Shown here: piece after piece, positions 3,421-59,889 of the stretch
How positions within the stretch are numbered: position 1 is the stretch's first letter
How the letters are laid out: each line of letters opens with the position of its first letter
Source of the DNA: Owenia fusiformis
Lineage: Eukaryota; Annelida; Polychaeta; Sabellida; Oweniidae
Assembly (NCBI GenBank): GCA_903813345.2
Contig: CAIIXF020000010.1
Span: 35,453,425-35,517,424, forward strand
Direction of reading: 5' to 3'
Length of the DNA stretch: 64,000 bases
The notes under the pieces: generated by a model
What the model was told of the DNA's origin: nothing
What the model saw: the letters and a program-made list of their open reading frames with translations, nothing else
Database searches by the model: none
Made by a program: the position numbers and the translations under genes

Positions 3421-3426
3421 TTTATT
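3421..3426 (-). promoter_or_regulatory. Poly(A) signal directly after TGF-beta stop
   Basis: On the minus strand the stop codon TAG (3429-3427) is followed immediately by AATAAA (3426-3421). If used, the mRNA would have a 3' UTR of only a few tens of bases. A more distal signal cannot be excluded. Confidence 0.5.
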
Positions 3427-26964: not shown

Positions 26965-27081
26965 CTGTGTTGCATCGGTCACCCTCCATTCCGGGTGGGC
27001 AGAGACACTTAAAGTTCTCTCCAAATGTGTTGATACAGACAGCACCTTCCCCGTAGCAGGGCTCTGTGCTACATGCGTCCT
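26965..27081 (-). CDS. EGF-like exon
   Basis: Phase 1-1, 39 codons, acceptor TTATTTCAG and donor CACAG|GTAGGA. Six cysteines follow EGF spacing (DACSTEPC, GAVC, FKCLC, GMEGDRC). A complete, canonical EGF module. Confidence 0.85.
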
Positions 27082-30000
27082 CTGAAATAAACGTAATCTA
27101 AGGAATAAAGGTCGAGATTATCTGGTTTAAGTATAATTAAAGACCCAGATTCTATTCTGTTCATCCTTAAGAAATACAGGAATCAAGCAGTTACTCAGGT
27201 CTTTGGCAATGGCCAGAAAAACCTGAGGTTATTTCTTTGCCAGTTATAATAATAGAATTGAGCAGCTGATCTTTGTTCTGATTCTCATATGATAAAGAAT
27301 ACATTCGTAACAGACATTACATTTACCGGTGTAAAAGAAATTATGGTCCCCTGGGGATCATGGTCCCCTTTCTTAAAGGCCCTTACTGGCCCTGATTGTG
27401 GATACGATAATAAGGGAAAGAGTTGTTTTTAGGTCACCATATAAATCAATGGAAAGTAGGACCATAATTTGATAGGACCTCCTACCCTTTTACACCTGTC
27501 TACAATGAAGATAACTAGTCATGCGCGCGTACCCCATTATTATGATAGACAAGTTAATCAATGGTTTAAGTCAATGTGGGACATGATATTTGGTTTACAT
27601 GGAATTGTAGATTTTCAAAAATTTATCAGATTTTCATCAATTTTCGACCTATCGTAATTGAGGAAAAAATTGGGAAAATTTAGAGGCAATTGAAATGAAG
27701 TCAATTTACATTTTCATCCATATTAAAAGTATTTTTCTCTTTATGTAAATAAAAATTCAAATATAAAAAGGCTTTAACACGTAGTTCAATGAGGGAGCTA
27801 AGGTTGCCAAACTTTTTGAGTGGAGTGTACTATAAACGACGTTCTTTGGCTATTATGTATGGAAACATATAGATAAAGTTTCAAGATGATACATGTACTT
27901 TCTCCAATTTTCAAATAACGAGACCCAGAACGACAGCTTGTGATACGTTTTTCAGCAGTTGCCTTTTTAGTCTTAACAACATGTAACCATTGAGGAAAAG
28001 TATATTAAATAGTTGTGTAATATATATGATTTAAGTAAGCAAAAGATAATCACCATCATCATCGCATTTATTGTAGAATATAATGAGATGTGGAGAAAAT
28101 AACGGGGAAAATAATACGACTTATAATGAAGAGGCATATCAATAGAAAAAATACGTGACGTTTACCAGCAGATTAAGGGCGACTTTCGAGCTTAACTTCC
28201 AATAAAGACCATGATAATGGTTTATGTATTTTTTACCCTATTAATAGGGTTAAGCTACACGTTTTTAGAGAACTTGTACGCGTTATATTGTGTTATGTTA
28301 TATGATATTATATATGACCCCCACCCAGAGATTTCTCTTCTCTCAATTTATTTCTCAGGGACCCAAGTACAGCAATTTACCGGTCGATTCCTTTTTACTT
28401 AATAGACTATAAAGAGAGATCCGATATATATAGCAAGCAGGCTAAACAAAAATTGTCTCAATTTTAAAATATATTTGGCTCATGTCATTCCTTGTAATGT
28501 CTATTTTCAAAAAACAAAAAAGTGCATCATTTATTCCAGGAAAACTAAAGATTTTTATCATAATGTATGGTTAACATTGTTATTATTTGGGAGAATTTAA
28601 ACATTTTTCATCCATTTTTCTACTTTGGATCAATAACAACTTAAGGTGACTGTTAACTTAATCGATTTTCAGAAAAAAATGAAAATTTCACAATCTTGAA
28701 ATTTTCAAACTCTTCCTGAGAAGTCGTTTTTATTATTTCACATATGCTTGTGCACTGTAATCATTACAAAGACATCAAAGAACAAAAAAAAACGTTAGTT
28801 TGAGAAAAAAGTGCCGTTTAAAGAATTTGAGAAGATTTTTTTCTAGGAGTAGCCCGTGAAAAACCGCTGATTCAAAATATCTGAACATTTCAGAAAATAT
28901 ACTTCAAACATATATAAAAAACGAAGGAGCAACGGAAATTTGAAAAATTACCCGATAAAAAAATTGGGATCAAAATAAGGAAAAAAGTACACTTCTCAAA
29001 TTGTTTTTTTTTCTATTTTTTTTAATTTGTATGAGAGATTTCAAAATTCTAAAGCTCCTTCCATTTTGGGCTATATTAAAGGGATGTTTCAGAGAAATTA
29101 GAAAAATGTTCAGGGACCTTTGCCGTGCTACTCTTTTTGTCAATTTTTCTGTCACATTTTCAGAGGACTCAAATTCCCATTCCAAAATGTTTACTGTTTC
29201 TATTTGCATTACCACAGTGAGCCTGGTTATATAAATGATAAGTGGAACTAAAAAATTGAGAGAAAATCCAACCAAAAGACAGTTAATTTTGATGGTCAGA
29301 TTATACTGAAATGCCATGTGCTTCCTGGTTTCGGCCATCTTGGATTTTTGATTAAGTTATAAGTTACCTTAACCAATTTATAACATATTGTGAATCTTTT
29401 GGGAGATATTGTATTTGACATTGTAAGGAATAAATTGGTGGGTCAATGGTACACGTTGCTTGTAATTTTGTCACCCTCTGGATTCTGCCTTTAATCGGGT
29501 GAGTAATTCAAAGAGAAATAATCCTAAGAATGCCAAAAGTGTAAACGTTCACGTACAAGTCCTCTAAAAACTCCCTCATGTACGTTCACTTACCATTTGA
29601 GGGCCATTCGCAGTCTGATTCGACATCTGGGACATCTGAAATGACGTGTAAGAAACCATTGTTCATCATGGTATTAAAGTGAATTCAAAAGCTTATAAAA
29701 ACGATCAAGTACGTTTCGGATGTCTCACGTGATTTCTTTAATAATCCCCGAAGATCACAATCAAAATACAAGTAGCGTACACTTACCATCAGTACAGTTT
29801 GGGCCTTGCTTATGAGGTGGACAAAGGCACTGCACTCCTTCATTCAACGGGATAGCAATACCTCCATTGCATTCTAAAAGCACACAAATATAAGCTATCC
29901 AACTAGAATTATATAACGTATACAACTTTACTCATTTTTAATAAATTTTCGAAGAGGTTGATTACATTTTTATAATTAGTTGATAGATAATGAGTGCGTC

Positions 30001-39000: not shown

Positions 39001-42000
39001 GTCCCGCTCCAGGCCAAATGCGGGCAGATATAATATATCCATCCCGCTCCCGGGAATTTTTCAAAAGTTTAAATATCAAAAGTTTTAATTTTTTAATTTT
39101 AAAATTTAATTTTTTTAAGTTTAAATGTTACAATTTCATTGTATTGAACAAAAAGAATATTACGAAAACGTTAAATATAAATATCTTGTCATTTGAAAAA
39201 GGTGGAAAAGGTTATATCTACCCTAAACCCACTCAAGTATGAGATACACCAGTTATGCACGGTCGGTTTGGATACATGGAATATTCCTTGGGATATTCCC
39301 TGTATCCAAAACCTCCCAGTGCATAACCCCTATGTATTTAGTTTTTTTTCCTGAAGGTTAAGAAAATAAAAATTCAAACATAGAAAGGCAAAGACGTGAA
39401 AATGTGGGAAAGTTTTAATATTTAATTTATGCGTTTCTTTCATTCAAATGGCGACCCTAGAATATAATTGCAATCGACCTCCATGGCATTTGACAAAGTC
39501 AGACCTGTAGTCAGAGAAGGGGGGGGGACGCCTTTCTCCAAAGTTTATTTAAAATCGTGCAGTTTTTCATGATTGTGAGCTCTTTTAACTTAAGTGATGA
39601 CCAAAGTTGTTTAATGTGGACCCCCTGCCTCCATCACTCTGGAAAATGGCTACGGGCCTGAAAGGGCAAATATTGTCATTGATTTCTCGAGAGCTCATGA
39701 TACACTCAATCCACAAGGTGAGTCTGAAGGTGAAAACCTAGAAGATCTCTGTAATCAAAGGCTGAGACGATATTTTCTATAATCAGAGTCCTAGACGACT
39801 TCTGCTGTAATCAGAGTCCTGGGTGATCTTTAGACTTCACTGTAATCAAAGTAGACAAACATCCGCTGAACAGGGAAATTGATGGATTAGTGAATAATCT
39901 TTTGTTTGTTTTTTAAATAATACTTATTGTTTTGACAAATATAAAACTTTTGTTTCCGATTGTAATACAAGTGTATGTATCAAATCCATCATGTGAAGCA
40001 ATCCCTAAAAGCAGAACAAGACAACCACAATAACCACCTTGTTCTAAGGGTATTACTACTAGTTTAGAAGTCTTATATTTTACTATCTGAGAAATAGCGG
40101 GCCATAGTGCAATGCCCAGTCGTCGTGGTGTTTCAAAATGAATATCAACATTCAGCATTGAACACACTGAAAAACTAGACATTTGGCCTTCGGCCCTTGG
40201 GCGGTCCAATAATCCCCTATCACACTACCCTACCCCCATACTCTAGCCTGTATTTTTTCATAGGAACAAGCTGCAGTGAAGATGCAAATGGAGAGGTATT
40301 CTCTATCTTTGTCTATGGGATTTCCTGGTAATAATAAAATGCAAACTGCTTGATGAATATATTTGATATATACAAGTAGTAATTCGATTGTATCCCTTCA
40401 GAAATATGGAAATGATCAAAAGTCCTCAATTTGCAACTTTACTGCAGCCTGTATTCTTTTTAAAGAAATACGGGCTACGGTTTGTGGACAGAGTAGTGTG
40501 ACTGTGGTACCCGCTGAAATGAGTTTATTGGCATATTCTTCAATAGCATCCTACATTATACTGTAAAGCAGGAAGGCGTGAATGAAAACATAATTATTTT
40601 TGATCATTTGACTCGGGGACTGAAATGTTGCATTGAAGTTACAGCTACATGTTGAGTGTTAGATATTTGTAAATCATATAAAGATTGGTATAGTAAAATG
40701 TACATGATACTTTTAACCCCACAATTTCGTGGAGAGGAGAACATTACAAGAGTCCGATCATCTCTTTAAAACCAAAACTTGTTCCATAACAATTCATCGT
40801 TGGTGCCATTTGGAATCTGAATTTTGTTCTGTCAATCATCGGCAAAGCAGGTCTCAGTGCGTCTTGGGTAGAATTCTTTGGAAGGTCAGGCCCGCCAGGA
40901 ATACCAAGGAGGCCACTTTTTGAAAAATTCCAGGGGTCACATTTAACAATGACAACTTTCGCCCAAGTTCACTGCTCAAAATGTAGAAAAACTGACTATG
41001 GGCCTGAATCTCAACCCCCATTTAATTCCATTACTGACATTCTTCAATTTTATGATGCAATAAAATATTGCATGAAATTATTTTGTAATGATAGGGTGGT
41101 TTATATCATAATTTAATATCCAATTTTCTCTCTTCACAAAACGTTCAATACATGTTTCATTACAAGAATCAATACTGAGTATTGAATCATAAATAGCTCT
41201 GACATGTTGAGTAAGATTAATCTTGTCTTCCCAGATGCATGTAAGCTGGACAATGGACAGTCATGAATTAAAACAAGGACGTCTTTGAATAAAACAAATA
41301 TTTCATTTATTTTCGGTTAATACCCAGGCCCGTAGCCAGGATTTGCCAGGGGGGGGGATTCGTGGAACACTAGTATCACTTGTGAAAGATGTACAGGTAT
41401 TCACCACAATAGAGTGAATTATTTGCTAAATATTCATAAGAAATAAACATCTGGAGCGGCAGCAGTGTAACATTTTTATATCAAAATTAATAAAAGAGCA
41501 TGCAATAAACTGTAAGAATATAAGCTTATATTATGTAACATGCAAAAACAATAAATCTATTTCAATATTGCTAATATAGAGCTTTTTGTCTTCGAAATTG
41601 TCACGATCGCCGCCAACTGTAAAAAAACAATAGAGAGGTTATGCTACACGTTCTTTAGCTGAACGCGTAAACTCATTTTTCCCTGCGGTATATCTCTCAA
41701 AGTTATCTTTAAATTTGACTAGTTTAGTATAAAGATCTTAGGTAAGTTGTTATTATTATAAACCGTTGGATGGGGGAACAATGTTGCTTAGGGTCACATA
41801 TTACACGTTCAAATTTTGCTAAATGCATGTAGCTGAATCTCTCTTATATCTGGAATATAACGCAAACCCTTAATTAATTAACTTTCAAATATAAACAGTG
41901 AAACAAGTAACTGCAAATTAACATGATGTAGGAAAGCCAGGTAACCCACTGACTCTTGGGATTCGAAAGTCAGTTGTGGTTGCAAACGGTCGAATGCATT

Positions 42001-45000
42001 CATTGAATTAATTATAACCAAATATTTTTTCAGAACTTCAACGAATGCGTCGAATCCCATTGAATGAACTCCTATCTGTAGTGAAGGCTTGCACCAACCC
42101 CTTCGGCCTTGCCTCTCTTCCTGCTATCCCTCTCTCCCATCTCGCTATCCTGTAAAAATGAATATTATTTTAAACAGACGAATTTCATGTACATTGTATT
42201 AATTGATGCATCATGATTATTCAATTGTAGAATGAATTAAATATTATTTACAATTATTTTGAATACCAAACTAAACCCTTTTATGTCATTCTGATACTCA
42301 TAGCATCTTTCTGTTTCACCTGAAACATGCTGAGCAGACATGGGATGTCATGGTTTATCATGATGCTTTTATGTAGGCTATTAATTATAGTTAATATATG
42401 GTATGTTTATGCGAATTCCAATTGGACTAATATAAAGGGGTATTGTTTCATTATGTGCCAGTGAACTTGAGAAAGTCCGACATACTCATTGCTTCCAACC
42501 CAAAACTTAAAATGGGAAGTAATCAAGATCCCAAGAACACGATCGGTACTTAAACAATACGCTTGTAAAATCCCGGCGATCGAAATGCAATCAAACTTTC
42601 GCAATCAGGTGCCTAATTAGTCTTTTGATCTCTGAAGTTTTACTGAACTTTTCAATGAACTCGTGAGAAGCAAACGCAATCATCACAACCTCAAATAAAC
42701 ATGTTTCTTGTAAATCTAAAATAGAGTAAACCCCAGGGAAAATATCGCGTGGTAATTTGATTATTTTATAGGAATTTGGCATATTTCAATTTTGAAATAA
42801 CAAAAGTCAGTCTCGGAAGAATTCACCAAGCATTCCCTACTTCGATGCGTTTTTTGGGAGGGTCGTTTAGCGCCGATACGACTTCATGATTAGAGTTGTG
42901 CTTTATTCGTTTTTATGAAATATGTACGTCACAAGTGACACTTTGATGAATTATTTTTTGGTTTACAATGCATATTTAGCTTTTCCCTCTAAAAGTTTAA
43001 AATCCATCTTTATACTTTTCTTAGATTGATTCAATAAAATTAACATTGGATCCCAGACAGTTATTGAATTCTCAGACATTTGATTAGTCTAGATATTTGT
43101 ACTTCCTTTGACCAGTGGCTGGTGTGACTGAACTTCAAATCTAGTCTGTTTCATTTTTATGTAAATTGAAAGGAATAAAGTTTTATCTTAAGTGTTTTAA
43201 CAATCTTAACGTTTGGCGTGCAGCACAACTTAATACACAATCAAAGGACAGAATACAGAAATAAGAACATGTCTTTTATTTGTTATTCAAGCTCGAGCAA
43301 TATCCCCGTTATAAAACCAAAATATGGTCCTTGGTCATCGCAGAAATGGTCTTGCAACAAACCTATATGTGCCCGCTTGTCTCTGTAACTTAATAAATAA
43401 AAAGTTATACTAAATATAAAATACGATTCTGAATAAAAACTTTAAGAACGTGGTTTGCGTTATTTATTTATACGAACTCGCTCGTCTTTTGGACTTTATA
43501 AATGAGTATGGAAATACACAAAGCCAAGTGGCCATGAGCTTAATAATTATTAGTAATATTGAATTATTGTACATGTACGAGGGGTGATCCAAAAGTCTTG
43601 GACGCCCTGCTCTAATTTTGTTGGTTTTTGATAAAATTACTTTAAACTTTCCAATAATAAAGGCCAACAACCAAACTACTTTGTGTATTAATTTCATGGA
43701 GAAATTATATATTTTGTACAGTTTTCTAGATAGTTTTTAATACAGGGACCCTGCCACCCGGAACGGTATTCGCACATGGCAACTTTCAGCCTTGAATGTT
43801 ACCGCCATTTCACTTGTTTCACAAGTCTTGACCACTATATTTCTTTGAATTTTGAATGTTAAACCATGTTAGTTTACTTCCTTTGTTACTAGGAAACCAT
43901 TTAATTGTGTTGTAATTATAATGTCACATATGACAAAGGCCGCACATGTCAAATTCTAAGAAAATGCCATCAGACAAGCAACCCTCATTCTGGTATCATT
44001 TTTGCTGCAAGATGGCTGCTGAAATGCAGAACACAAAAAAATCAAAGTGGAACAAAGAATACTTCAAGATATTTTCACAATTATTGACCTTGAGCAGCTA
44101 CCATATGCACGATACAGTCTATCTATAGCTCCATGTGATTTTCTTCCTTTTCTCCAAGTTGAAAAGATGGTTGAAAGAAAATGTTTTTTACTCATTGAAT
44201 GAGGTTTAGAGTAGAACTCCAGCAGCATTTGTATCACATAAGCACTGACGGTTTCATAAATGTCTTCCATTCATTGGTAAAGTGGTATGAAAAATGTGTT
44301 CAAATTCGCGGAAAATATGTTGAAAAGTAGGTCTTAATATGTGAAGATGATGATGGCAGATGACACTCAGGTTGAAAATCGAAAATTCTCTCATATCATG
44401 GCTGGTGTTAGGTTGTGCACCTGCACCTAAAGTATTTGCCATATTATAAGAGTTGTGACGTGATTTGCTATATTCAAATACCGTTCCGGGTGGCAGGGAC
44501 CCGGTATTAAAAGATATGTAGAAAAGTAGCAAAAATATATTATTTTCTGTTGAAACTTATACATAAAGTTGTTAAGATGATGATATTTATTGTCTGAAAG
44601 TTTCATGTAATTATATCAAAAAATAGCAAATTTAGAGCGGGGCGTCCAAGACTTTTGGATCACCCCTCGTATTGCTTTCCTGGGTACTCTAATAATAAAA
44701 TTATACGTTCCCAAATAAAAAAAAATAGAAGAAGAATCTAGATAACAATTCAATAAACAATATCAAGTTTAAAATCCGAAAATACGCGCGGGCCGTAAAC
44801 GTTTCTGAATTTAATAACAAAGTACATGTGACTGTGTAATTATATCCATTGATGTTGTAAATTATTACTACATGTATGTTTAAGCCATCTTGCTTCATCA
44901 AGCTTCGGACCTATCCTAAAACGTAGTGATTGAGCGTGGGAACTGACGATGGGTTGAGCAGAGACATATAAAACTGGTTTATGTCTCTGATCGATGATTT

Positions 45001-48000
45001 AAGCATAAAATTATATAAGACCTAGAATGAAGATAAGACAAAGATCGCATTATGCAAAACAATTAATTTAGCTTTTAATTATTGATCTGTGTTATACGAT
45101 CGACCAGTGCCGATGGTATTATCATTACATTATGTATGTGCCGACCGAGGTGCCGATGGAGCAATAGCATGGGCATGTCGATAGGTGTGCCGATCGGTAT
45201 ACCCATCGCCCATCGGAATACCCATCGGAATGCCGATCGGAATGCCCATCGGCGGCCCATCGGTGTGCCGATCGCGCGCTTAGTTACAAAACAAATGTTC
45301 AAGCTTCATTATCAAACAGATTTAAAATACTAGAGTTCTGCTTAAACGCAACAACTGATTAGGACAAAAACTGAAAAACAATATGGCTATCTTTAAATTA
45401 AATTAAAAATAGATTGTGTCATGCAAGACTCGCCATTTGAATAATTTACAAAATGAATTCAGCCTTCAGGAATCATGCGGGATTTATGCACAAGGTAGCT
45501 TCTCAAATAATTACACATTTTTATTAAATTTTCGATTTCATTTGGTACGCCTGTGCGCATTTGGCGTAATATATGCGACACGCCAATGATAACTGTTAAA
45601 ACAAAAACATGCACATCAATTTCCGTTTAAATCCTGTACGAATCCTGAAGGCTGGATTCATTTGTAAACTATATTATATATGAATCCTGCTTGGATCCTG
45701 GCTACAGGATCTATTTGCAAACTACCTTCTATATGAATCCTGTATGAATCCTGAAGGCTGGATTCATTTGTAAACTATATTGCATATGAATCCTGTATGG
45801 TTCCTGAAGGCTGGATTCATTTGTAAACTATATTGCATATGAATCCTGTATGATTCCTGAAGGCTGGATTCATTTGTAAACTATATTGCATATGAATCCT
45901 GTATGATTCCTGAAGGCAGGATTCATTTGTAAACTATATTGCATATGAATCCTGTATGATTCCTGGAGGCTGGATTCATTTGTAAACTATATTGCATATG
46001 AATCCTGTATGATTCCTGAAGGCAGGATTCATTTGTAAACTATTTAAACAGCGAATCCTGTATGAATCCTAGAGGCAGGATTCATACAGGATTCATATGT
46101 GCATATGAATCCTGTATGAATCCTGGCTCCAGGATTCAGTGGTTTGATTCACATTTTTTGCTGTGTTTGTGACTAGCCATGCGGGGTGTATTCAACAATA
46201 TTTCCCCTGCTTTTCGGTCTATCTTTCTTAAATTCAGAACCCCAATTTAGGTGTCTTGACTGAAGTGGCATTTTGGGCCAAAAAAACAATACCCAACTTT
46301 AAAGATGAATATCATACAATATATGTTAAGCTATGCCTTGTATTACATATCATTTTAAAGGTAAATCATTTCCTAACAATATGACACCATCCGATTGAAA
46401 AACTTTTGTTTTCTTGTGGAGTGAGAGCCTAAAATTGACACCGGGTGTGTCATGAGGGACCAACAATTATTGACTGCGGATTTCAAAATGGTGAAAAATG
46501 GAGGGAAATTTGAATTTGGGCACCATCAAAAGAGGTACATTAATACAAGTTTAGTGCAAAATTCACCCATAATACTTATATCTTTTCATTTAACTATCAT
46601 TTGTTTATTTTCATTTTTAGATTAACAAAGATAACCATTTCAGTTATGAACAAGTAGCTAAATGATGGTATCATATCTTTTAATTTCAGAGGCCCTGGAC
46701 CAAAATGAGACAATATGCCCAAATTAAGTGATTAAGATGAAGCTCTTATAAAAATCTTAAAGAAGAAAAGAACTATATGGCAAAAAAGAATATTAAATGA
46801 ATTCCCCAGAAGGAACCTCAAACCTGGCACATCATGATTGATTAATACTGTTATTTCTTATAATATTTCTTATAATATATCACCTTACCATGATTAATGC
46901 TGTTATTTCTTATAATATATCACCTTACCATGATTAATACTGTTAGTTCCTATAATATATCACCTTACCATGATTAATACTGTTAATTCTTATACTAAAT
47001 CACCGTACCATGATTAATACTGTTATTTCTTATAATATAACACCTTACCTTGATTGATTAATACTGTTATTTCTTATAATATAACACCTTACCATGATTG
47101 ATTAATACTGTTATTTCTTATAATACCATGATTGATTAATACTGTTATTTCTTATAATATAACACCTTACCTTGATTGATTAATACTGTTATATCTTATA
47201 ATATAACACCTTACCATGATTGATTAATACTGTTATTTATTATAATATAACACCTTACCATGATTGATTAATACTGTTATTTATTATAATATAACACCTT
47301 ACCATGATTGATTAATACTGTTATTTATTATAATATAACACCTTACCATGATTGATTAATACTGTTATTTCTTATAATATAACACCTTACCTTGATTGAT
47401 TAATACTGTTATTTCTTATAATATAACACCTTACCATGATTGATTAATACTGTTATTTATTATAATATAACACCTTACCTTGATTGATTAATACTGTTAT
47501 TTCTTATAATATAACACCTTACCATGATTGATTAATACTGTTATTTATTATAATATAACACCTTACCTTGATTGATTAATACTGTTATTTCTTATAATAT
47601 AACACCTTACCATGATTGATTAATACTGTTATTTATTATAATATAACACCTTACCATGATTGATTAATACTGTTATTTCTGTAGGATTGTTTCCATCGCT
47701 TACGTCAATCGTCAAATTATATGGTTTATCCGATCCGTTTAAGGCTGAAACAAGTATATACTCGCGTTATAAAAACAATGGCAAACTAAAGGATATGCGT
47801 CAATGTCCACTTAAGTCCCTACTGAATTCGCTTCGATCATATTCAGTCTCGGAGAGGAATCTTTTGAGAATGTCCTTTGTGGATATTTGAATATATTTCA
47901 ATTCACACTTTTAAAAAGAAGGCATCTTGCCTGGTTTTTATGTTCCACTTTAGAACATTCTCCAATTAAACAAAAACCTAATTCAAGTACATTTACCGAT

Positions 48001-51000
48001 CAAATATTACACAAATCAGAATTCTGAATGTAACTAGCATTACGTGTGAGGAATGACCGTGTCACCATATTTGGTACTAGTGTGCGAATTCTTCTTTACT
48101 TCTTTGTTAGTACCTAGCAGCAACATTAAGGAATTGAACTTTGGCATTAATGTTTACCGGGATGATGACCTTACCTTTACTATTTGTAATGACACCTGTC
48201 GTAGAATCTATCCCAAATTCTTGGGAAGAACCTTTTATCCTATATATCAGTGTATTATAGTCGCTCGACACATCATCATCTGAACAATTCAATTTTAAAA
48301 CCTAAAATAAAAATATTTTGTATCGTTAAACGTGTATTATCCAAAGAGTACTAGCACGGGATAACACAAATTATTTTCAGTTTGAAGGGGACTCATCTCT
48401 TACTTAGCCTATTTTGGGGTACCGTGACAGTACTGCTTTTGTTTGCTTTTGGTTGTTTGTTTGCTTGTTTGTCTGTCTGTTGTTTTGGGAAGGGTTCCAT
48501 GTATACATTCATCAAAGGTAAAATACATTGTTATCAATGAACTCTAATATCAAAAAACATCTTATTCTCTGTTATGCGTAAAACAAGATACAAATATGAG
48601 TGACTGGTCTTACTTTAAAGGTAGTACCATGCTTTCAGAGAAAAGAAATTTGGGAAATATCTCAACAAAACATTAACAAAATATTTTGATTAAAATATGT
48701 ATTTTCCAAGAACATATTAAAATCTACACACAATTTCGAAAAATATTAGGCCTATATTTATATCCCAAAACTTGCAAAAATCAAGTTTCATTGTCAACTT
48801 TATTCACACAAACAGATGTTCAATATATCCACACTTTTGATCAATTATAGTCCTCAATCTTGGCCTAAACTGGCCAATAGCATCATTCATTTGATATGCT
48901 GTTGAGACAATCAATTTGCGACTATGGATTATTTAAAAAAACGAATACGACAAATAAGTGCTTGCAATTGTCGAATTTGGGTATTCGCATCTGACTGAAA
49001 ATTAGTATGAAGTGACAAAATACTAGGCTGATCATTTTGATATATGGATACAAGTGAAGGTGACTTCTGACTAGTAAGCAAACTAAACAAAAATTTAACA
49101 CAACAGACGTTTCAATCCATTTGATGCTTTGTTAGCCTGTAATGAATGAATGTAATCAACAAAATAGGACCAAAAACTTAAATGTGACATGTGACAATTT
49201 TGGAAATTTGAATTGAAAAGTGACTGACGCGCCCTCGCTATCCGCTCTTGGCGATCCCTAATACGTACATGTAGTGAACGGCACTTGTGTTTTGTATCAG
49301 AAAGCGCGTTATTTGTAATAGCATTGGGCATTAGCACTATGTAATAATGCAGCACCGAAAACAATCATTATGATGAAATTGTGACATTGTACATTATCTA
49401 ACCGTGGTCTTGGAAATAAGTATTTACTGACAAAATATCCGTGTATAAAAAATATCCAGGAACACAATCTTTTCTGTTGACAAATTACTCTTGTTGAGTG
49501 TGCGCTCAACGATAAATATCGTGGCAATGCATGTTTTATCCTGGTATATAACCTCGGCAGATATTGTAACTGTAGTAAACGAAAAACGCGAATATGGAGA
49601 GGAGTTTTACACCCATATAGAAAATAAACTAGTCTTATCCGCTAGTGTAAATCCGTAATACACGTAGCCAGAAACGGCGGGCACTTTAACATATTTTTTG
49701 TAATTCACGCATACATACCTCTGTATATTTTGGTGTATATTCTCCCAGAGAAACTTGGTAAATTGTCTTGTCACAAACCGGAAAATTGTCATTCACATCT
49801 AGCACAACGATAGTAAGTTCTTCGTCCCAAAGTTCACCAACTGGCCCATCTCTAGCTCTGATTTCTAATTTGTGTACTTGAGTTGTTTCATAATCAAGTT
49901 CTGAAAATATTTTGTTTTTGAAAAATATCTAGCGGCCTTAAAAACATCCTCGTGACACACTTTATGCAGATCTATTCAACGAGGTAAAGAAAATAGTGTG
50001 TTTTCTAGTGTCAAGTGCTGTATTATAAGTTACTGAATGGTTTGAAGTGCAATACAGGATATATTTTCGACTTCGTCTCGTTCTAATACGGAATTTCTCG
50101 AGCAGAATATATCCTGTATTCAAAATTGCAGTTCAAATCATTCTATAACTTATATTATCGTATGATCCGTAAAATGAAGCCCTCTGATTGGTCAGTTCTT
50201 GTGCTGTACCAATCTGTATTGCTAGCTACTGATGATGAGGTCATCTCCAGTCTGTCATCTCCGTCGCAATACAGAAAATATTGGTACGGAGGGGACAATC
50301 TCAGTAGCAATACAGAGGATCACGCGATAAAAACGTGAAGTGCAATATAGGATATATTCTGTCTCGATATTCTGTATTGGCACTCGACTTTGTCTCGTTC
50401 CAATACAAAATTTCTCAAACAGGCTAGAGTAGTATATATTGTATTGTTCCATAGCTGTAAACTATGATGTCATAAGAACATTTGTCAGTTGCTTGAAAAC
50501 GATTTAAATTGCAAAATTAAATCATTTTGTTAAGTTAGTTATAAGATGAATACATTTATTTTCAAAGAAAAGTCATATTTATTTAAATGCACGGGGCCTT
50601 TAAATGCACACAGTTTATTGATTTCAAAAACAATTATACAGGGGTCTAGATAAGCTGAAAAAATTATTAGCCAATGTGGCTAATATTTTCTAAAAAATAA
50701 TATTAGCCACTCTGAAAAATTATTAGCCAAAACATTTTTTATCAAATGACATAAATTGAAAGCGTACTTCAAACAAATTTCACATGTCATCGTCCCGCTA
50801 ACGCTATTGCATGTCAACCAAGGCTGCCCCGCCTTCCAATCTCTGGACGGAAAGACCAATCCGGGACCTCAATGGTCCCAGAAAGTGCAAGAAGAAATGC
50901 TTACATGTAGGCTAGTCTACCACATTCGTTTGTCCGAATTCTCACCGGTTTTCGAATATAATCACCCATTCTCAATAAGAATGCAAAATAGGTGACCCAG

Positions 51001-54000: not shown

Positions 54001-57000
54001 AGGAATAATAAGTCACATGTAATTGTTGACTTCAATGTGAATTCTTTCCACTTATGTCTCTTCAAAATGCTTGATGTATGATTTAGTATTAAGACAAAAT
54101 ATATCCTTATTGTTAGAAACAAAAACAGACATGAGAATAATATGTTGAATGAAAATATAGGTCTCTTGCTACGACAACCCTCTATAACGTAAATGACAGA
54201 GACCTACTTTTTAAATAAACACTAGATAAGCTTCAACATGTGACTTTTCCATGAAGGGGTATGAGATTGATGAAGATATTTTGACTTTAGATACTTAACA
54301 TATATTCAAATAAAAATACATCAACTTTAAACCATTCAAAGCTACTTTAATTTTCGTCAGATTCATACCTGGAATTTGCATTCTTATTGAGAATGGATGA
54401 ATACGCAATTGTAATTGTTTTAATCGATGTAAGCATATTCCTTACATCTTTCTTTATCTGGGTGAGAAATAACAAGCTATGGTATTGGTTAATACGCCAG
54501 AAATCACCATATTATTCTTCGAAATCTCTTTAGAAAATTTTGAATTTAGCATGACATGAATGCAACAGAAAAACGAACGAAACAGGTTTGCAAATATGAG
54601 CTTCTGTTAAATTTGCATTGACCCGAAAACAAGTTGTGGCGTCTTAACTGATTTATTAAAATACCGAACGCAACAGATATTATGAAGCTTCCATGTGTTA
54701 ATTTTCCATTGAAACAAAAATAATTGTGGCGTCTCATGGCTGAAATTACGAAAATACGAAAGTTGAAAACGGAGAATTTCCTCGATAACTGGATGATTTA
54801 TCTGTTTCGCGGGTAGGTTCAGTACAAAAATATTCGCCAACCTTGCGAATATTTAGATCAATATCTTCGCCAGGTGCTAAAAGTATTCGCAATTGGCGAA
54901 TGGCGACAGCTTATCTAGACCTCTGAATTATATTTAATATCCACGATGAGTACTTTCCTGACTTTTTTGGCATTGCTATTTCCTTTTTATTATGTCATAT
55001 ATATTTGTGAGACGTGTATGGAGAATAAGTTCATCTCTCAAAGCCTTTTATCCAAAGCCAAATACCTTTCAATTCAAACAGAATACTAATTTTACTTTCA
55101 AATCTTACCTCTTACTAGATTAACAGTTACAGTGACACCATTTAATACTTCTGTGGCAAAAATACCATTCGCATTGCCAGATACTATACTAGATACTAGT
55201 GCGTTTGGATTATGTAGAGTGCTGCATGTCATAAATGCTAGTACCTGAAAAATAGAAATGCCTTGTATCCTTGCATATTTGATTTAAACGTGTATTGTTT
55301 CCTTTTGTATGCATGTATAATCTATTTTCCTCTTTACATAGATATGGATTGTGTACTAGGATGTTTTGGATATGGTGTTTATCTAGAGGGAGATATATGC
55401 ATCTTCCGAGTCATTAACCCCATTTTCAAATAAACCGTACATAACTCAAACTTTTTTCAATTGTTTTTCAAAGTTTTGTTCAATTACCGGAAGTGGAAAG
55501 ATGCCAAGGAGCGAGAGATATGACGGAAGATTCTAGAGGTTCTGAATATGGAAACCTCAAAATTGAGATACAGGATATACCTTACCAACGTACCTCCCTA
55601 AAACTCTGCTTCGCATCGGATTTTGACAGTTATCCACGTATTATTACATAAAAATGATAAATTACTAGAAAGCATCACAAGAATATTAAAAGTAGTTATT
55701 AAATAAAAGCATTTGTCTCCGCCAATGCATTATATATATACACACTCCCCTCCATAAGTTTGGCAACCCTACCCCCCCCCCCCCCCCCTACCATTTATCT
55801 GACCTATTGTTATTGTTGAAAATAATTGAGAGGTATTGGAAGTGTTCGAAATGGTGTCAATTTATATTTCAAGTCCTGAAAGTAGTATTTTCTTTACAGA
55901 TTATGCAAATAAAAATTCAAACATAAATAAGCTTTAGCACGTTATTTATTGTGGAATGGTTAGGGTTGACAAACTTTGAGATTTCCATATTCAGAACCTC
56001 CCGAATCTCCCGTCATTTCTGGGCAGTGTTTACCATCTACTCTCTCCACTTAAAGTTTTCCATGTCTGGTCTGACTATAGATTCTATGCTCGAAATACCA
56101 ATTTCTTTGCCAGTACCATAGTCTGATAGTGGCAAAACTACGTCCCACTTTATACTTATTTGATACAACTTTCAACAGAGTTCACATTGCTGTTATGAGT
56201 CGTAATCTTTTTTTTATTATTAAATCAATGTAACCTATTTACAGGTTTTAGTGGCTATGACCCCCAAAAGGGAGTATTACATGTAGGTATTACACTGAAC
56301 ACTGACAAATCTGACTGAGTCTATATTGTTATGGCGCTCCTGTTAAATATAGAAACTATCCCACTTCATCCTTTATTTTTATCCCCACTCTAACTCCCTT
56401 TTGTTTAAGCTTTTTTGAAGATACATGTTTTTCAATTAAATAGGGGATACATACATTTCAACTTTTCACTTGAACGTGACCCGAAACTAAATCAATGAAA
56501 ACATAATATCAAATTGACTCCTAGACTATGTACGTTCTGTATACGACCCCCTAGGGCTTGCTACCATACCCGAGTTGTGAAAGTAGCTATAGCTACAAAT
56601 AAAAGACTACGTTTGGTGCAAAAATCGGGGTGATCGGGCTATAGTGGCTGAGTTAGGATAACTTGGGTTTTTATTTCAGAAATTGCTTGAAATCATACAA
56701 GTTATGTTCTCATAGAATAAGAACAAAAGCTCAGACATGTTCAATATCATCTTTGTTACAAACAAGTTGCTAGGAGTAAATTGCTTTAGAAGTGCTAGTA
56801 TTTGTGAGAACAGAAATTCTGTCATATATCTTAGTACCTCTGCGAAAAATGTTAGTTATTTTCGCAGTTACTAACTTTCGAGAAATGCAAGTTTTAAATA
56901 AATTTTACAAACAACTTTCAACTTTCGAGAAATAATCCCCTGAGTATCAATCATCCCATGCAAGGAATAAAAAGTCTAAGTATGTTATATGTTGAAAATT

Positions 57001-59889
57001 AAGAACAGAAGTAAACATAAACTGATACAGGTACGTCATGAGAAACAAAGGTTAATATGGGTAGGGGGAGGTGATAAGGAAGTGTATTAGAGCAAGTTCA
57101 CACCAAATTTTGAATTATATATATCGGCGTCTAGTTGCCTAAATCTTCAGCTACGCCGCCCCTGCTCCTCTATGGCACTTTGACCTACCTTCGACACCAT
57201 TTGACCTCCTTTTTAGACACCTCCCTCGATAATTTACGAATGGCCTATGATATGGTGCAGTACCTTACTTTTTATTTTATCTCTTAAACTTTGAAACGCC
57301 AGGGGGTCATGTGCCCCCTTCCCTATTCATTAGTGTTGTGAACAAATCTGTTGTACATATTAGGATGAATTTAGTTAATACAGTGGAATGCGTGCCTATT
57401 TTTAACGGTTACTTATTTCTATCATAATATCCCAATATATGGAGGATGACTAAACGTGGTCAGAATAAAACCATGGTAAAGAAGAACTCACAGGTCTGCC
57501 TACTTCTGATTTATCTTCAGATCAGGGACTTCCACTTTTCCAGGGTTTCCTATACAAAAAACACCTGAAAAAGAAAACTACAATTCTTACTTGTATGTGA
57601 TGATAATGTATAAATATTGAATGATTTGTCATCTCTTTTGAGTAAAGGTTTCAAGTCTTTACTACCTATCTAGTTTGATGAAGCGAATTTGATGAACCGG
57701 TGTCAGAGTAAATATAGTCTCCCTGAATATATGGTCCGGGAGACCATACAGACTAGGACACCATGTCCTCCGGACCTTGTATCCTAGGGTGTGTGGTCTT
57801 AACCGGACCATATTCTCTGTATTGGTAAACAATATAACCCAGGACTATATTTACTGACGGACTATAGATACGTTGACAGTCCCCCAGGGATTATGGCCCC
57901 CCCCTTTTAAAGGCCCTTACTGGCCCCGATTGTGGATACGATAATAAGGGAAAGAGTTGCATTTAGGTCACCATATTAATCAATGGAGAGTAGGACCATA
58001 ATTTGATAGGACCTCTTACCCTTTTACACCGGTGTCAGAGTAAATATAGTCTCCCTGAATATATGGTCCAGGAGACCATACAGACTAGGACACCAGGTCC
58101 TCCGGACCTTGTATCATAGGGTGTGTGGTCTTAACCGGACCATATTCACTGTATTGGTAAACAATATAACCCAGGACTATATTTACTGACGGGCTATAGA
58201 TACGTTGACAGTCCCCCAAGGGATTATGGTCCCCCTTTTAAAGGCCCTTACTGGCCCTGATTGTGTATAAGATAATAAGGGATAGAGTTGTATTTAGGTC
58301 ACCGATTAAATCAATGGAGAGTAGGACCATAATTTGATAGGACCCCCTACCCTTTTACACCGGCAAGATTTTGGTCCTATCTGTTATCTTTATTTTTACT
58401 GTATAGATGTCGTACTATAGTAGTACTTTACGTAATATATACTTATTTGATATTTATCAATGAATTAAAAAACACTGCTTGCATCCAAACACCTTTAGTG
58501 CAGTGGTTAGAACAGTCTTCTGACTGTTGCCTAGGTGTGGATCGACTCCCACTCTATCCTGTGTTTTTTCTTTACCATATTCTGCATAAAATAAAACTAT
58601 TCCGTTTCCTCGTTTTCATGAGACTAATCTTAATATTGATGCACGTATAGGGGACTATAATTTCTAGTTAATTCTGTCCCTTGGACAACTTATTCTTAAT
58701 TTTCTAGATGTACATGTCCAAGCGGACTATATTTTCTGGTTGCCTCTGTCCCCAAGACAACTTATCCTTATTTCTCTAGTTAAATGTCGTCTACTAACAT
58801 TTGTCTAGAGACTATAAAAACTGGGTAGTATAGTCCCATTTGCAGTATATACATTTTAAATAACTTATATTAGAATAAGTGAGCATATTGGCATGCGTAA
58901 CTGCACTCGATTCACTGCCTTGAATCATTACTAGAGAAATGGCACCATGGGAATAATAATCACGCCCTTTTGATTTTTTGTTTGTGAAAGAATTCCCGTG
59001 GTTTTGGGTGACATAGCAGTATAACACGAACGGTCTTGTATGTCAATGAACTATTAATTATACAGAGACTTCATTTATATACATATCTATGGACATTTAG
59101 GCCTATAACCAGAAAAATATGTTCCGGTGCGACTAGTTAGAGACCATAATTTGGTATTTAAAGTCCGTGTGCATATTGTGATTAATCACGAACTTTTTGG
59201 TTGTGAAACAAATAAACCTATTAAAAAGAAAGAAAATTGGTTGTTTGAGATAAATGTGATAAAAGTGCAAATCTCCTAAAATCTCATGAAAAATGAGAAT
59301 TAGCGAGATTTCAAAGTTTTTTGGAAACTCCTCTATTGAATGACAGCATGTTTGGCTATTAAAAGCGTTGCCAATCGACTTGGAAAAGAGCTATCTTTGA
59401 CTTGGAATAACATTTTCATACTCTATCTATATTTAAGGTAGAGCAATTTGCCAAAGGAGTTGAATTGAGTCATTTTTGTCGACAGTGAAATTGGTCATTT
59501 CCAGGTCAATTTACTACTTAATTAATGCTCTCGTGCTCCAACCTCCCTAAATTGAAAGAGCGTCCAAAACAACGTCTATTGTATTAATTTTATGTCAATT
59601 GGTGATAAAAAACATAATAAAATACACGCTTCGTTCTTCGAAGCTACTTCCACTCAGTACAATTTTTTTGTCACGGTTAATGAAAAAATTGGCGAGAGCA
59701 CTGCATAGAACAAAAACACTAGTTTCACCAGGAATTTTGCGCAAGTTGATTGCATACTCTCAGTTGTGCCGGAATGACCCGTGTACATGTTCTTACCTTG
59801 TCCCATGGTCAGATCCACGCCAAGTAAGATTACTGCCATTAAGTAGACGAATAACGACATGATGAACTTCATTGTCAAGTACAACCGAT
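26965..59889 (-). CDS. Cadherin/EGF adhesion-type protein (partial, multi-exon)
   Basis: Minus-strand exons, in transcription order: signal peptide 59889-59797, cadherin 55244-55109, 49900-49719, 48301-48175 and 47744-47655, micro-exons 33961-33926 and 33728-33690, partial EGF 29873-29787, micro-exon 29635-29594, EGF 27081-26965. From 55244 on, all phases chain without a break and the split codons give sensible residues (for example R-E-LDYE across 55109/49900). Cadherin calcium motifs LDYE, RARDG and DVNDNFP are present, covering about 1.8 repeats. A phase 1-to-0 exon between the signal peptide and the first cadherin exon is missing from my reading, and no transmembrane or stop exon was found below 26965. 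Whether all exons belong to one gene is inference from strand, phase and order. Introns are filled with mobile elements. Confidence 0.65.
27326..27498. mobile_element. Small MITE (GGTGTAAAAG ends)
   Basis: Ends CCGGTGTAAAAG and CTTTTACACC enclose inverted GACCATAATTT-type arms. Its inner sequence (AAAGGCCCTTACTGGCC) recurs in the tandem element at 57697-58363. Confidence 0.6.
27598..27827. mobile_element. Single right arm of the CACTCCC palindromic MITE
   Basis: About 230 bp match the right half of the element at 6073-6627 (TTTTCGACCTAT, TTTAACACGTAGTTCAAT, GGTTGCCAAACTTT) and end in GGAGTG-TA. The left arm is absent. Confidence 0.75.
28645..29368. mobile_element. TTAA-flanked MITE, 724 bp
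   Basis: Inverted ends GGTGACTGTTAACTTAATC and GGTAACTTATAACTTAATC are flanked by TTAA on both sides (28641-28644, 29369-29372). TTAA duplications are typical of piggyBac and Kolobok elements. The 122-codon minus-strand frame inside has no recognisable domain and is probably fortuitous. Confidence 0.65.
29594..29635 (-). CDS. 42-bp micro-exon
   Basis: Phase 1-1 with acceptor CATTTCAG and consensus donor ATG|GTAAGT. It encodes 14 residues, VPDVESDCEWPSN after the split codon, with a single cysteine. It is a linker between the partial EGF and the EGF exon. Confidence 0.6.
29787..29873 (-). CDS. Partial EGF exon (four cysteines)
   Basis: Phase 1-1, 29 codons, acceptor GTGCTTTTAG and donor ATG|GTAAGT. 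It reads ECNGGIAIP, then VQCLCPPHKQGPNC. Relative to canonical EGF it keeps C2, C4, C5 and C6 but lacks C1 and C3, which normally bond to each other. Confidence 0.7.
30448..30588. repeat. Foldback copy (TATCCCGAGGG family)
   Basis: The hairpin has arms GTTATG..GGTTTTGGATATG and the inverse, around a centre GAGGGCCCGGAGGGC. A degenerate relative lies just before it at about 30245-30335. Related to the elements at 24040 and 38920. Confidence 0.55.
30847..31302. repeat. 456-bp direct repeat, left copy
   Basis: It starts AGAATATAGTCCGGAG and ends GCAATCTTGACCC. The copy at 32166-32621 has the same length and I noticed only one base difference (GATTTTT versus GAATTTT). It looks like a pair of LTRs of a very small retroelement, but lacks TG...CA ends. 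Confidence 0.85.
32166..32621. repeat. 456-bp direct repeat, right copy
   Basis: Near-identical partner of 30847-31302. The spacer (31303-32165) begins TATTAG, and TATT-AG recurs at the junction into this copy. No matching target duplication was found outside the pair. Confidence 0.85.
32919..33475. mobile_element. 557-bp MITE with CTATCACACC ends
   Basis: Inverted ends CTATCACACCAAACTAGTTC occur at both sides. The interior is GC-richer than its surroundings and repeats GAAC/GTTC-type motifs. Target duplication is unclear (GTA versus GGG), so superfamily is unassigned. Confidence 0.65.
33690..33728 (-). CDS. 39-bp micro-exon encoding a GNST linker
   Basis: Phase 1-1 with acceptor TTTTTCTTCCAG and donor ATG|GTAAGT. 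It encodes GDNPKGNSTGSVN. It and its flanks are clearly paralogous to the exon at 33926-33961. Confidence 0.65.
33926..33961 (-). CDS. 36-bp micro-exon encoding a GNST linker
   Basis: Phase 1-1 with acceptor TTTTTCTTCCAG and donor ACG|GTAAGT. It encodes SSPGNSTDSID after the split codon. Intronic flanks (TTGACAACTTACC, GGAAGAAAAAT) match those of the neighbouring micro-exon, showing a tandem exon duplication. Confidence 0.65.
34097..34765. repeat. Minisatellite-bearing element, copy 1
   Basis: Tandem units of about 53-61 bp are built from GAATCCTG motifs with ATATAGTTTACAAATGAATC spacers, preceded by CAGCAAAAAATGTGAATCAA and followed by a unique tail containing CGCCAAATGCGCACAGGCG. An inverted copy with the same head, array and tail lies at 45500-46170. 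This head-array-tail layout resembles Helitron/Helentron-type non-autonomous elements of marine invertebrates, but terminal hallmarks were not confirmed. Confidence 0.7.
34766..35470. other. Non-coding spacer
   Basis: No exon, RNA gene or repeat was recognised between the minisatellite element and the GC-rich array. Confidence 0.35.
35480..35645. repeat. GC-rich TCGGCA/CCGATCGG array, copy 1
   Basis: Short degenerate units such as CGGCATTCCGATCGG and GATCGGTG are repeated in alternating orientation. A second array of the same type lies at 45100-45285, also beside the inverted minisatellite element. Confidence 0.65.
35700..37990. other. Intronic region without recognised features
   Basis: AT-rich, with a run of ten G at about 37147. 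At 37463-37640 inverted pieces around CCAGTCAATGTTCCGATCGT / ACGATCGGAACATTTTACTG form a small foldback. No exon was recognised. Confidence 0.35.
38210..38325. repeat. Hairpin repeat (ATTTGAAGTGC family), copy 2
   Basis: Same foldback as at 24720-24842: GAATGATTTGAAGTGCAATA with its inverse, and CAGAATA/TATTCTG inner arms. The preceding sequence (CAGTAGCAATACAGAGGATC) is also shared with 24650 and 50300. Confidence 0.65.
38920..39335. mobile_element. Foldback-rich element, inverted copy of 24040-24535
   Basis: It reads, in reverse, the same GC-rich end, A/T-rich middle and TGGATACATGGAATATTCC hairpin half as 24040-24535. The two copies are about 14 kb apart in opposite orientation. Confidence 0.7.
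39495..39660. mobile_element. Short hAT-like MITE
   Basis: Ends CAGACCTGTAGTCAG and the inverse of TGGCTACGGGCCTG, with a G-run inside, resemble hAT CAG(G/A)CC termini. A related end, CAGGCCCGTAGCCAGG, occurs at 41328. No clean 8-bp duplication was seen. Confidence 0.45.
39661..43575. other. Intronic region with one partial dispersed repeat
   Basis: Apart from the repeat at 41284-41425 (shared with 23750, with hAT-end-like sequence and a G-run) I see no exon with convincing flanking splice sites. Several short open frames lack domain content. Confidence 0.35.
43578..44669 (+). mobile_element. Degraded mariner-family transposon
   Basis: A 1,092-bp element with ends CGAGGGGTGATCCAAAAGTC in inverted orientation and flanking TA (43576-43577, 44670-44671). 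Inverted similarity extends roughly 190 bp in, including CCACCCGGAACGGTAT. Plus-strand reading in broken frames gives APCDF, then LKRWLKENVF, then GFINVFHSLVKWYEKCVQIRG, the C-terminal catalytic region of mariner transposases. Stops and frameshifts show it is dead. Confidence 0.8.
44680..45095. other. Intronic spacer, nothing recognised
   Basis: AT-rich sequence without exon or repeat signals that I can support. Confidence 0.35.
45100..45285. repeat. GC-rich CCGATCGG array, copy 2
   Basis: Units such as TGCCGATCGGAATGCCCATC repeat here with the same motif vocabulary as 35480-35645. Both arrays lie next to a minisatellite-bearing element. Confidence 0.65.
45500..46170. repeat. Minisatellite-bearing element, inverted copy
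   Basis: Inverse of 34097-34765: tail with CGCCTGTGCGCATTTGGCG at about 45550, an array with a strict 53-bp period around 45788-46000, and end TTGATTCACATTTTTTGCTG near 46170. The unit is GAATCCTGTATGATTCCTGA followed by TTTGTAAACTATATTGCATAT. Confidence 0.75.
46833..47682. repeat. 44-bp minisatellite carrying splice-donor sequence
   Basis: About 20 tandem units (a few of 40 bp or with deletions) abut and overlap the cadherin exon 47655-47744. On the minus strand each unit reads GTAAGGTGTTATATTATAA, then AAATAACAGTATTAATCAAT, then CATG. The last 24 or so bases equal the exon's 3' end and the first bases equal its donor. Some units read CAAG|GTAAGG, a better donor than the authentic ATG|GTAAGG. 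Confidence 0.9.
47655..47744 (-). CDS. Cadherin exon with repeat-derived 3' end
   Basis: Phase 1-1, 29 complete codons plus split codons. Acceptor TATACTTGTTTCAG precedes 47744 and donor CATG|GTAAGG follows 47655. It encodes LNGSDKPYNLTIDVSDGNN and then PTEITVLINH. The first part is the final strands of a cadherin repeat (IDVSDGN). The last eight or so codons are the same sequence as the tandem 44-bp unit next to it. Confidence 0.8.
48175..48301 (-). CDS. Cadherin exon (first half of repeat)
   Basis: Phase 0-1, 42 codons plus one base. Acceptor TTTTTATTTTAG, donor AAAG|GTAAGG. It reads VLKLNCSDDD, then NTLIYRIKG, then FGIDSTTGVI, the early strands of a cadherin domain. The open frame continues into the intron by chance. 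Confidence 0.85.
48302..49718. other. Cadherin gene intron
   Basis: An intron of about 1.4 kb between consecutive cadherin exons. No MITE ends or other features recognised; a short TTGTTTG/CTGT-rich tract lies near 48440-48485. Confidence 0.5.
49719..49900 (-). CDS. Cadherin exon with calcium motifs
   Basis: Phase 1-0, two bases plus 60 codons. Acceptor AATATTTTCAG, donor GAG|GTATGT. It contains ELDYETTQ, LEIRARDGP and DVNDNFPVCD, the three conserved cadherin calcium-site motifs, followed by the first strand of the next repeat (YQVSLGEYTP). Confidence 0.9.
50033..50455. repeat. Hairpin repeat (ATTTGAAGTGC family), copy 3, plus a partial
   Basis: A foldback of GTTTGAAGTGCAATACAGGA with TATATTC arms at 50040-50150 is followed by linker CAGTTCTTGTGCTGTACCAA and a second partial hairpin at 50335-50455. 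Same family as 24720 and 38210. Confidence 0.6.
50639..54925. mobile_element. 4.3-kb hAT-like element
   Basis: Ends CAGGGGTCTAGATAAGCTG (left) and, inverted, CAGAGGTCTAGATAAGCTG (right), flanked by the 7-bp repeat AATTATA. Subterminal similarity (AGCCAATGTGGCTAATA versus CGCCAATTGCGAATA) extends inward. CAG-starting ends and a 7-8-bp duplication suggest hAT, but no hAT transposase is visible. It lies in the intron between cadherin exons 49900 and 55109. It carries the decayed ORF at 52134-53228. Confidence 0.6.
52134..53228 (+). pseudogene. Decayed transposon-encoded ORF
   Basis: Plus-strand fragments in shifting frames read GKHPAEIQKDYRDRKK, later SEKDKDHKRK, later ARGHAWLFKERISRTW, and near the end YCWYVEKTLHVDTDDNKYYF followed by FLRKEE and a stop at 53228. 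The basic PAE-x-QKDYRDRKK start and the WYV-x-K...FLRK end recall an uncharacterised protein type common in marine-animal DNA elements; that recollection is weak. Many stops and frameshifts mean no functional product. Confidence 0.4.
55109..55244 (-). CDS. First visible cadherin exon
   Basis: Phase 0-1, 45 codons plus one base. Acceptor CTATTTTTCAG, donor AGAG|GTAAGA. It reads VLAFMTCSTL, then SSIVSGNANGIFATEVLNGV, then TVNLVR, matching the central strands of a cadherin repeat. It joins to LDYE in the next exon through a split GAA codon. Confidence 0.8.
55743..55980. mobile_element. Truncated CACTCCC-family MITE
   Basis: The left end CACTCCCCTCCATAAGTTTG is intact, followed by a C-run of about 18. 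The right part keeps GGTTAGGGTTGACAAACTTT but lacks the terminal GGAGTG. It is inserted next to a TA microsatellite. Confidence 0.7.
55981..57690. other. Intron, nothing recognised
   Basis: The missing phase 1-to-0 exon of the cadherin gene should lie between 55245 and 59796. The best splice-flanked candidate (57490-57570) has stops in every frame before its donor, so I do not call it. Confidence 0.35.
57697..58363. repeat. Tandem duplication of a 332-bp element
   Basis: Two consecutive copies (57697 and 58029 onward) begin CCGGTGTCAGAGTAAATATA and end CCTTTTACACCGG. Each holds inverted sub-arms (GACTATATTTACTGAC) and the segment AAAGGCCCTTACTGGCC shared with the MITE at 27326. Confidence 0.75.
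58490..58565 (+). ncRNA. tRNA-like sequence (SINE head or tRNA pseudogene)
   Basis: TAGTGCAGTGG resembles a Pol III A box, and GGATCGACTCC (58539-58549) a B box at tRNA spacing. A GTGG/CCAC T-arm and an ACAGT/ACTGT stem with a six-base loop can form, and a T6 run follows at about 58562. The loop size and acceptor mismatch argue against a functional tRNA. Confidence 0.4.
59797..59889 (-). CDS. Signal-peptide exon, start of cadherin/EGF gene
   Basis: Acceptor GTGCTGTTTTAG at 59890 suggests a spliced 5' UTR. ATG at 59872 opens MKFIMSLFVYLMAVILLGVD and then LTMGQ. The donor CAAG|GTAAGA at 59797 is strong and phase 1. It is a typical secretory leader with no domain. Its membership in the downstream cadherin gene rests on strand and order; the connecting exon is unseen. 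Confidence 0.65.

Follow-up and report, generated by a model that had tools for sequence, protein, structure and literature searches.

Minisatellites built from the edges of exons have been met before in lancelets, for which Canestro et al. 2002 is reportedly the reference cited, and in the human gene IFI6, whose minisatellite with multiple splice donor sites is said to have had its original account in Turri et al. 1995. The lancelet 'mirages' are minisatellite-like tandem duplications of exon/intron boundaries that arise at either edge, as in Adh3 and the globins (PMC3087553), and they have also been noted in TnC and PGBD5 (PMC3902484). Data on Adh3 and RT-PCR of globins suggest that regular splicing is undisturbed by them (PMC3087553). 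In IFI6 (6-16, G1P3) two downstream repeat units are reported as extra donors (PMC4526556). Human genes in segmental duplications can have tandem repeats of variable length where exon and intron meet, and new introns and alternative transcripts are reported to accompany these (PMC2812944). Intron gain through tandem duplication of AG|GT-bearing segments has also been discussed (PMC3087553). The open-access literature searched yielded the structure only in single lancelet genes, in IFI6 and, in a related form, in human duplicated genes; it gave no report of mirages, so described, from animals other than lancelets, and the accessible portion of a paper on intronic minisatellites of an earthworm does not describe boundary-spanning ones (PMC12783039). 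The original prediction for the locus reported here, that such minisatellites are rarely described, is true but incomplete, given the lancelet mirages, IFI6 and the human duplicated genes (PMC3087553, PMC3902484, PMC2812944).

The array under study lies in a 64 000-nucleotide stretch of the genome of the annelid Owenia fusiformis (the window), on the minus strand, in a cadherin/EGF gene. It is probably a donor-type mirage, in which the donor segment of one exon (exon C) has been duplicated into ~20 mostly silent intronic copies. The features discussed are located in Table 1.

Table 1. Location of the exons of the window gene and of junction arrays; positions are those of the window unless C1 or C10 is given.
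Feature	Position	Strand	Details
Tentative signal-peptide exon, MKFIMSLFVYLMAVILLGVDLTMGQ..	59797..59869	minus	donor AAG|GTAAGA; a reading of the sequence
Exon Z, first half of first cadherin repeat	55109..55244	minus	136 nt, phase 0 to 1, donor GAG|GTAAGA
Exon A, ..ELDYETTQ..LDVNDNFPV..	49719..49900	minus	182 nt, phase 1 to 0, donor GAG|GTATGT
Exon B, VLKLNCSDDD..TNSK	48175..48301	minus	127 nt, phase 0 to 1, donor AAG|GTAAGG
Exon C, end of second cadherin repeat, ALNGSDKPYNLTIDVSDGNNPTEITVLINH	47655..47744	minus	90 nt, phase 1 to 1, donor ATG|GTAAGG
Donor-type junction minisatellite	46833..47680	minus	44-bp units, 20 unit starts
Linker exon L1	33926..33961	minus	36 nt, phase 1 to 1
Linker exon L2	33690..33728	minus	39 nt, phase 1 to 1
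Exon E1, EGF-like, ECNGGIAIPLNEGVQCLCPPHKQGPNCTD	29787..29873	minus	87 nt; Pfam EGF models below cut-offs
Small exon S, DVPDVESDCEWPSN	29594..29635	minus	42 nt
Exon D, EGF domain, EDACSTEPCYGEGAVC..	26965..27081	minus	117 nt; PF00008 22.5 bits, cut-off 21.5
Acceptor-type junction array in paralogue (L027+L025)	C10:36823543-36834525	minus	97 bp x ~113
L055, Muted	C1		53.6 bits; frame stops after 7 residues in array
L058, WD40	C1		36.5 bits; frame stops after 25 residues in array
L060, PTCB-BRCT	C1		42.0 bits; frame stops after 1 residue in array
L063, Rieske_4	C1		34.2 bits; frame stops after 2 residues in array
L056, no Pfam match	C1		array starts at donor of exon-like ORF; stop inside

The 44-bp unit joins the last ~24 nt of exon C to ~20 nt from the start of the intron that follows. 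Exon C ends, on the minus strand, in TTAATCAATCATG, with the junction reading CATG|GTAAGG, followed by GTAAGGTGTTATATTATAATAAATAACAG and then by the last ~24 exon bases and the donor again. TRF, applied to the window, located the array at 46864-47680 with a period of 44, 19.2 copies and a score of 1291, and the anchor ACAG[TC]ATTAATC gave 20 unit starts, equivalent to 19 complete spacings, from 47673 to 46851. The original prediction had proposed a minisatellite made of the 3' end of an exon at 47655-47744 and its splice donor, repeated about 20 times into the intron, and the strand and edges of the exon, the composition of the unit and the copy number were all confirmed. Its figure of roughly 18 units with the GTAAGG core was a slight over-count: between 47744 and 46800 on the minus strand GGTAAGG occurs 17 times, as the authentic donor and 16 decoys, in the contexts CATGGTAAGG (12) and CAAGGTAAGG (five), and is kept in 17 of the 19 complete units when unit 0, which holds the authentic donor, is counted. 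GGTAAG is absent from the minus strand of the next 12.8 kb of the intron (46799-34000), and the entire window has 24 occurrences of GGTAAGG on the minus strand and none on the plus strand.

Units 1-14 carry between zero and two substitutions relative to unit 0; thirteen of them are 44 bp long and unit 12 lacks 10 nt. The distal units 15-18 are more diverged and comprise three 40-bp forms and one 52-bp form. The near-identity of units 1-14 to unit 0 points to concerted evolution within the array, and because unit 0, which includes the exon end, matches units 7-9 at 44/44 positions, the exon-end unit seems to be part of the array turnover. By eye, there are 88-bp steps in the order of unit types, and AACAG and TATTAAT also occur inside the unit. 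When 88 nt of the unit were searched against the genome, with very common words skipped, the array itself was the sole match, which rules out spread of the unit from elsewhere in the genome. Rfam returned nothing from the window at the gathering threshold. Tandem arrays are often mis-assembled, and one lancelet mirage is so reported (PMC3087553), but it is barely credible that the length or existence of the present array is an assembly artefact, as the differences among its units follow an order (five AAG units, shorter forms at the distal end) and similar arrays are found elsewhere in the same assembly.

The gene was reconstructed from nine exons (Z, A, B, C, L1, L2, E1, S and D), whose splice sites are all canonical and whose reading frame stays open over 285 codons. 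Splice phases gave exon Z, which is supported by the score that the spliced peptide reached in Pfam, and L1 should be the exon to which C is spliced. The signal-peptide exon is a guess with no link to Z, and an intervening exon is probably missing; no exons were found after D. Exons B and C together scored 25.9 bits with the Pfam Cadherin model, below its cut-off of 28.8, and the spliced Z+A+B+C peptide reached 58.1 bits in two stretches, which agrees with the prediction that exon C belongs to a cadherin. In the window and 30 kb of flanking sequence, a cadherin HMM made with 18 repeats from this genome detected exon A (E 0.0004) and exon B (E 0.001) and left C at noise level (E 19); beyond A and B nothing stood out. 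Exon C as the last exon of the gene was ruled out, since the downstream exons L1-D were found by paralogy. Both here and in the paralogue the linker exon occurs as a tandem pair (L1 and L2, with a GNST motif; window 33690-33961), so small exon duplications are old at the locus.

A genome search with the spliced Z-A-B-C peptide identified the paralogue, which is on the same chromosome at a distance of 1.3 Mb and has the same orientation. Comparison of the two loci recovered L1, L2, E1, S and D from each gene, and the exon order is shared. Exon C of the paralogue has a homologous end and phase and the donor AAG|GTAAGC but carries no array; the donor is therefore old and the array a secondary addition. 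Intron C-L1 measures 13.7 kb in the window gene against 0.85 kb in the paralogue, apparently because of a 12-kb insertion (window 34092-46165), probably a DNA transposon, whose inverted repeats of ~668 bp (34092-34758 and 45505-46165; 93% alike) hold 53-bp tandem units. Inside the insertion, at 43590-44690, inverted ~30-bp copies (GAGGGGTGATCCAAAAGTCTTGGACGCCC) were seen by eye ~1.1 kb apart, and these form a small nested inverted-repeat element.

Selection was estimated by the NG86 method between the window gene and the paralogue. The combined exons C+E1+S+D (108 codons) gave dN 0.142 and dS 0.555, without a significance test, and exon D alone gave dN 0.069 and dS 0.752. The value for exon C alone is weak (dN 0.386, dS 0.824 on 19 synonymous sites), and L1, computed apart, gave dN 0.18 and dS 0.824; the comparison covers C, L1, E1, S and D, and L2 differs in length. 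These figures are signs of purifying selection on the exons compared, so the product appears to matter, although it would be cut short wherever a decoy is used. The dN/dS estimate may not bear on the array, which could be too young for it. It is highly improbable that the gene is dead or exon C unused, with the array as mere debris: such a reading could draw on the incomplete gene model, which lacks the first coding exon(s) and everything past D, but it conflicts with nine exons that retain intact sites and frame, with the low dN/dS and with a paralogue of the same exon order.

The strength of the donors in the window array was assessed by duplex energy with the U1 5' end and with a donor matrix built from 16 distinct 9-mers among 37 family donors. 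The authentic donor ATG|GTAAGG gave -8.5 kcal/mol and 10.2 bits, and the five AAG|GTAAGG decoys gave -10.0 kcal/mol and 12.7 bits. Eleven decoys are thus equal to the authentic donor and five are stronger, and strength cannot be what selects the true site. Read-through past the authentic donor (...ITVLINHGKVLYYNK) adds GKVLYYNK and then meets a stop; because the stop follows at once, any decoy use lowers the full-length product. Both the superior decoys and the in-frame TAA within the first unit had been foreseen in the original prediction. The hexamer AATAAA is present in six of the 19 complete units and in unit 0 overlaps the in-frame stop of the exon C frame, with GT-rich sequence following (GGTAAGGTGTT), an arrangement that might allow cleavage in the array to generate an alternative last exon and a secreted two-repeat cadherin, restrained by U1 on GTAAGG. 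This is very unlikely, as AATAAA is frequent in sequence so rich in A+T and is missing from 13 of the 19 complete units, and as the array is absent from exon C of the paralogue.

The paralogue has an array of its own at the opposite edge of another exon. Just before its exon D lie 11 kb of tandem repeats with a 97-bp unit, in 113.5 copies by TRF; the unit, an acceptor with an exon start, comprises TATATTTGAATATTGTAG and the beginning of exon D. An exon-internal anchor gave 103 unit starts, all 103 with AG before the exon start, and an anchor that includes the acceptor gave 95, of which 92 had identical 18 nt up to the acceptor. Among 67 units of exactly 97 nt that were profiled, variable columns were both silent and replacing, and no sign of translation was seen by eye. 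GGTATGT occurs 93 times within this array and is a possible donor for micro-exons. Another piece (L028, C10:36813701-36819700) has two tandem repeats at positions 2581-3810, one of 84 bp x 4.8 and one of 30 bp x 21, flanked on each side by 47-52-bp arrays; the repeats are perhaps coding on the plus strand, where the 30-bp unit reads TNPSSGYQGM by eye.

Exon D of the window gene has an ordinary acceptor and no array. The exon is a member of a large EGF family, of which 25 further pieces were examined, and exon D was present in 23. One of these (L048, C11:4887700-4889350; 1131-1620) has three partial copies of the acceptor and exon start before an intact EGF exon, spaced roughly 112-141 nt, and represents a young acceptor-type duplication. 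TRF and tblastn showed no such copies in the flanks, of differing lengths, of the other 22. Either exon edge is therefore affected, with the donor type in the window and the acceptor type in the paralogue and L048.

Recurrence of donor-type arrays was surveyed across the genome with the pattern AGGTRAG x3. With gaps of 20-50 nt there were 1734+1613 matches against 518+417 for the reversed motif, and with gaps of 51-80 nt 1946+1723 against 741+494; this control counts matches rather than arrays. At the level of arrays, among the matches listed for the first 5.22 Mb of C1, there were six with the donor motif and three with the reversed motif. If, as a rough estimate, 40% of the AGGTRAG sites of a genome like this one are donors, random founding of arrays would by itself give a ~1.7-fold excess. 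Part of the excess is thus expected because donors supply many AGGTRAG words, and the 3.0- and 3.6-fold motif excess shows only a mild preference for donors, if any. The window array fits neither pattern, so the patterns under-count. A further match to the pattern (gaps 20-50 nt) lies at window 15692 (minus strand), away from any TRF-listed array. A corresponding acceptor-motif screen (TTTTTCAG x3) gave 324+275 matches against 1+21 reversed but is uninformative on acceptor arrays, because one dispersed repeat (TTTTTCAGTACAT..) dominated the matches listed. This repeat forms TTTTTCAGTACAT arrays at C1:293555-296346 and other places, often as inverted pairs ~0.9-3.5 kb apart, and is apparently another transposon with minisatellite-filled ends.

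At least 13 distinct donor-motif arrays lie on C1 up to 12 Mb among the matches listed, and 12 of these were inspected at the 5' side, the purine-rich array at C1:9402211 being left out. An exon-like character was judged from flanks and ORFs, not blind, and the reversed-motif arrays (L066-L072) stood outside this judgement. In five of the 12 the array begins precisely at the donor of an ORF that looks like an exon and has a plausible acceptor, and in all five the exon frame meets a stop inside the array; four of the five peptides pass Pfam cut-offs (Table 1). A further three (L054, L061 and L064) start at an exon-like end; their units are open and preserve the frame, and these arrays could be coding repeats. 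L054 (C1:441700-442860; tetraspanin 13.5 bits, below the cut-off of 32.1) has both edges duplicated, with two copies of 120 bp at the acceptor edge and a 54-bp in-frame open array at the donor edge. No exon was seen at the remaining four (L057, L059, L062 and L065).

Two options had originally been offered for the exon C array, neutralisation by exon-definition rules or a role as a length-variable splice modulator. The former fits better, because the compared exons are under apparent purifying selection and exons of conserved families (Muted, WD40, BRCT and Rieske) carry arrays of the same kind; the latter gained no support. If these genes work, position rather than strength must decide; in the window gene the decoys are of equal or greater strength. 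For the donor-type mirage we propose the following course. Slippage in replication, or unequal exchange, would have duplicated the 44-bp segment straddling the exon C donor, and the array would then have grown, partly homogenised, to ~20 copies within the intron. Under exon definition, the acceptor of exon C would pair with the nearest usable donor, so that the exon-proximal GTAAGG would win over 16 equal or stronger downstream decoys and the array would leave with the intron. Any use of a decoy would yield an mRNA encoding GKVLYYNK and a stop, destined for nonsense-mediated decay or for a soluble protein of two cadherin repeats.

Some use of the decoys is quite possible by analogy, because in IFI6 downstream units are reported as donors (PMC4526556). 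A working modulator of that type, in which the first decoys are used appreciably and the array length sets the share of truncated mRNA, would gain from the five decoys that outscore the true donor and from the immediate stop, through which any decoy use cuts the full-length product. Such a role is nevertheless unlikely: like anatomy in unrelated genes is easier to explain as tolerance than as regulation, exon C of the paralogue lacks an array, and lancelet mirages are reported not to disturb splicing (PMC3087553, PMC3902484). Counting against a silent array, the boundary repeats of human duplicated genes have reportedly been associated with new introns and alternative transcripts (PMC2812944).

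Splice-site choice among sites of equal strength is usually studied with built constructs of few sites. Here there is a natural series of 16 to >100 near-identical sites adjoining real exons, with some decoys stronger than the true site, and ordinary RNA-seq of O. fusiformis could reveal the rule by which a site is chosen. Extended to the genome, the proposal becomes tentative, with the chances somewhat short of even: that working genes of this genome, outside lancelets, hold splice-junction minisatellites by the few hundred, in which the exon-proximal copy is chosen by position alone, over 16 equal or stronger downstream donors in the window or ~110 near-identical upstream acceptors in the paralogue. 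If so, exon edges would be a recurrent birthplace of minisatellites, exon ends would join in array turnover and the arrays would be natural titrations of splice-site choice. The 'few hundred' is a rough extrapolation from the five firm cases, all within a stretch of no more than 12 Mb on a single chromosome. That such arrays recur in another genome would indicate a general mutational process acting at the edges of exons, and raw material for new introns and exons.

Among the systems described, the AG|GT model of intron gain shares with exon C tandem copies that carry an exon edge and splice signals, but a new exon or intron is not evident at the exon C array. The human duplicated genes likewise have minisatellites at exon-intron boundaries in recent paralogues (PMC2812944); there they are linked to exon elongation and putative new introns, whereas here the layout matches that of the paralogue and the array sits inside an intron that already existed. 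Like exon C, IFI6 has a tandem repeat at the end of an exon, with units that are splice donors; it differs in that downstream units are reportedly used, whereas decoy use here would meet a stop at once. The exon C array and its kin belong to the mirage class known from lancelets. In both, the unit is an exon edge with its splice signal, either edge may be involved, many units keep GT or AG, units range from tens to about 160 bp and turnover occurs inside the cluster. In the lancelet report the boundary unit on the exon side stands apart, which it does not in the exon C array, and copies in Owenia number up to ~113, compared with 3 and 6 in the lancelet BflGb6. The Owenia arrays further differ from the lancelet mirages in their annelid host, in the occurrence of donor-type and acceptor-type arrays in two sister genes and in the signs of many such arrays genome-wide.
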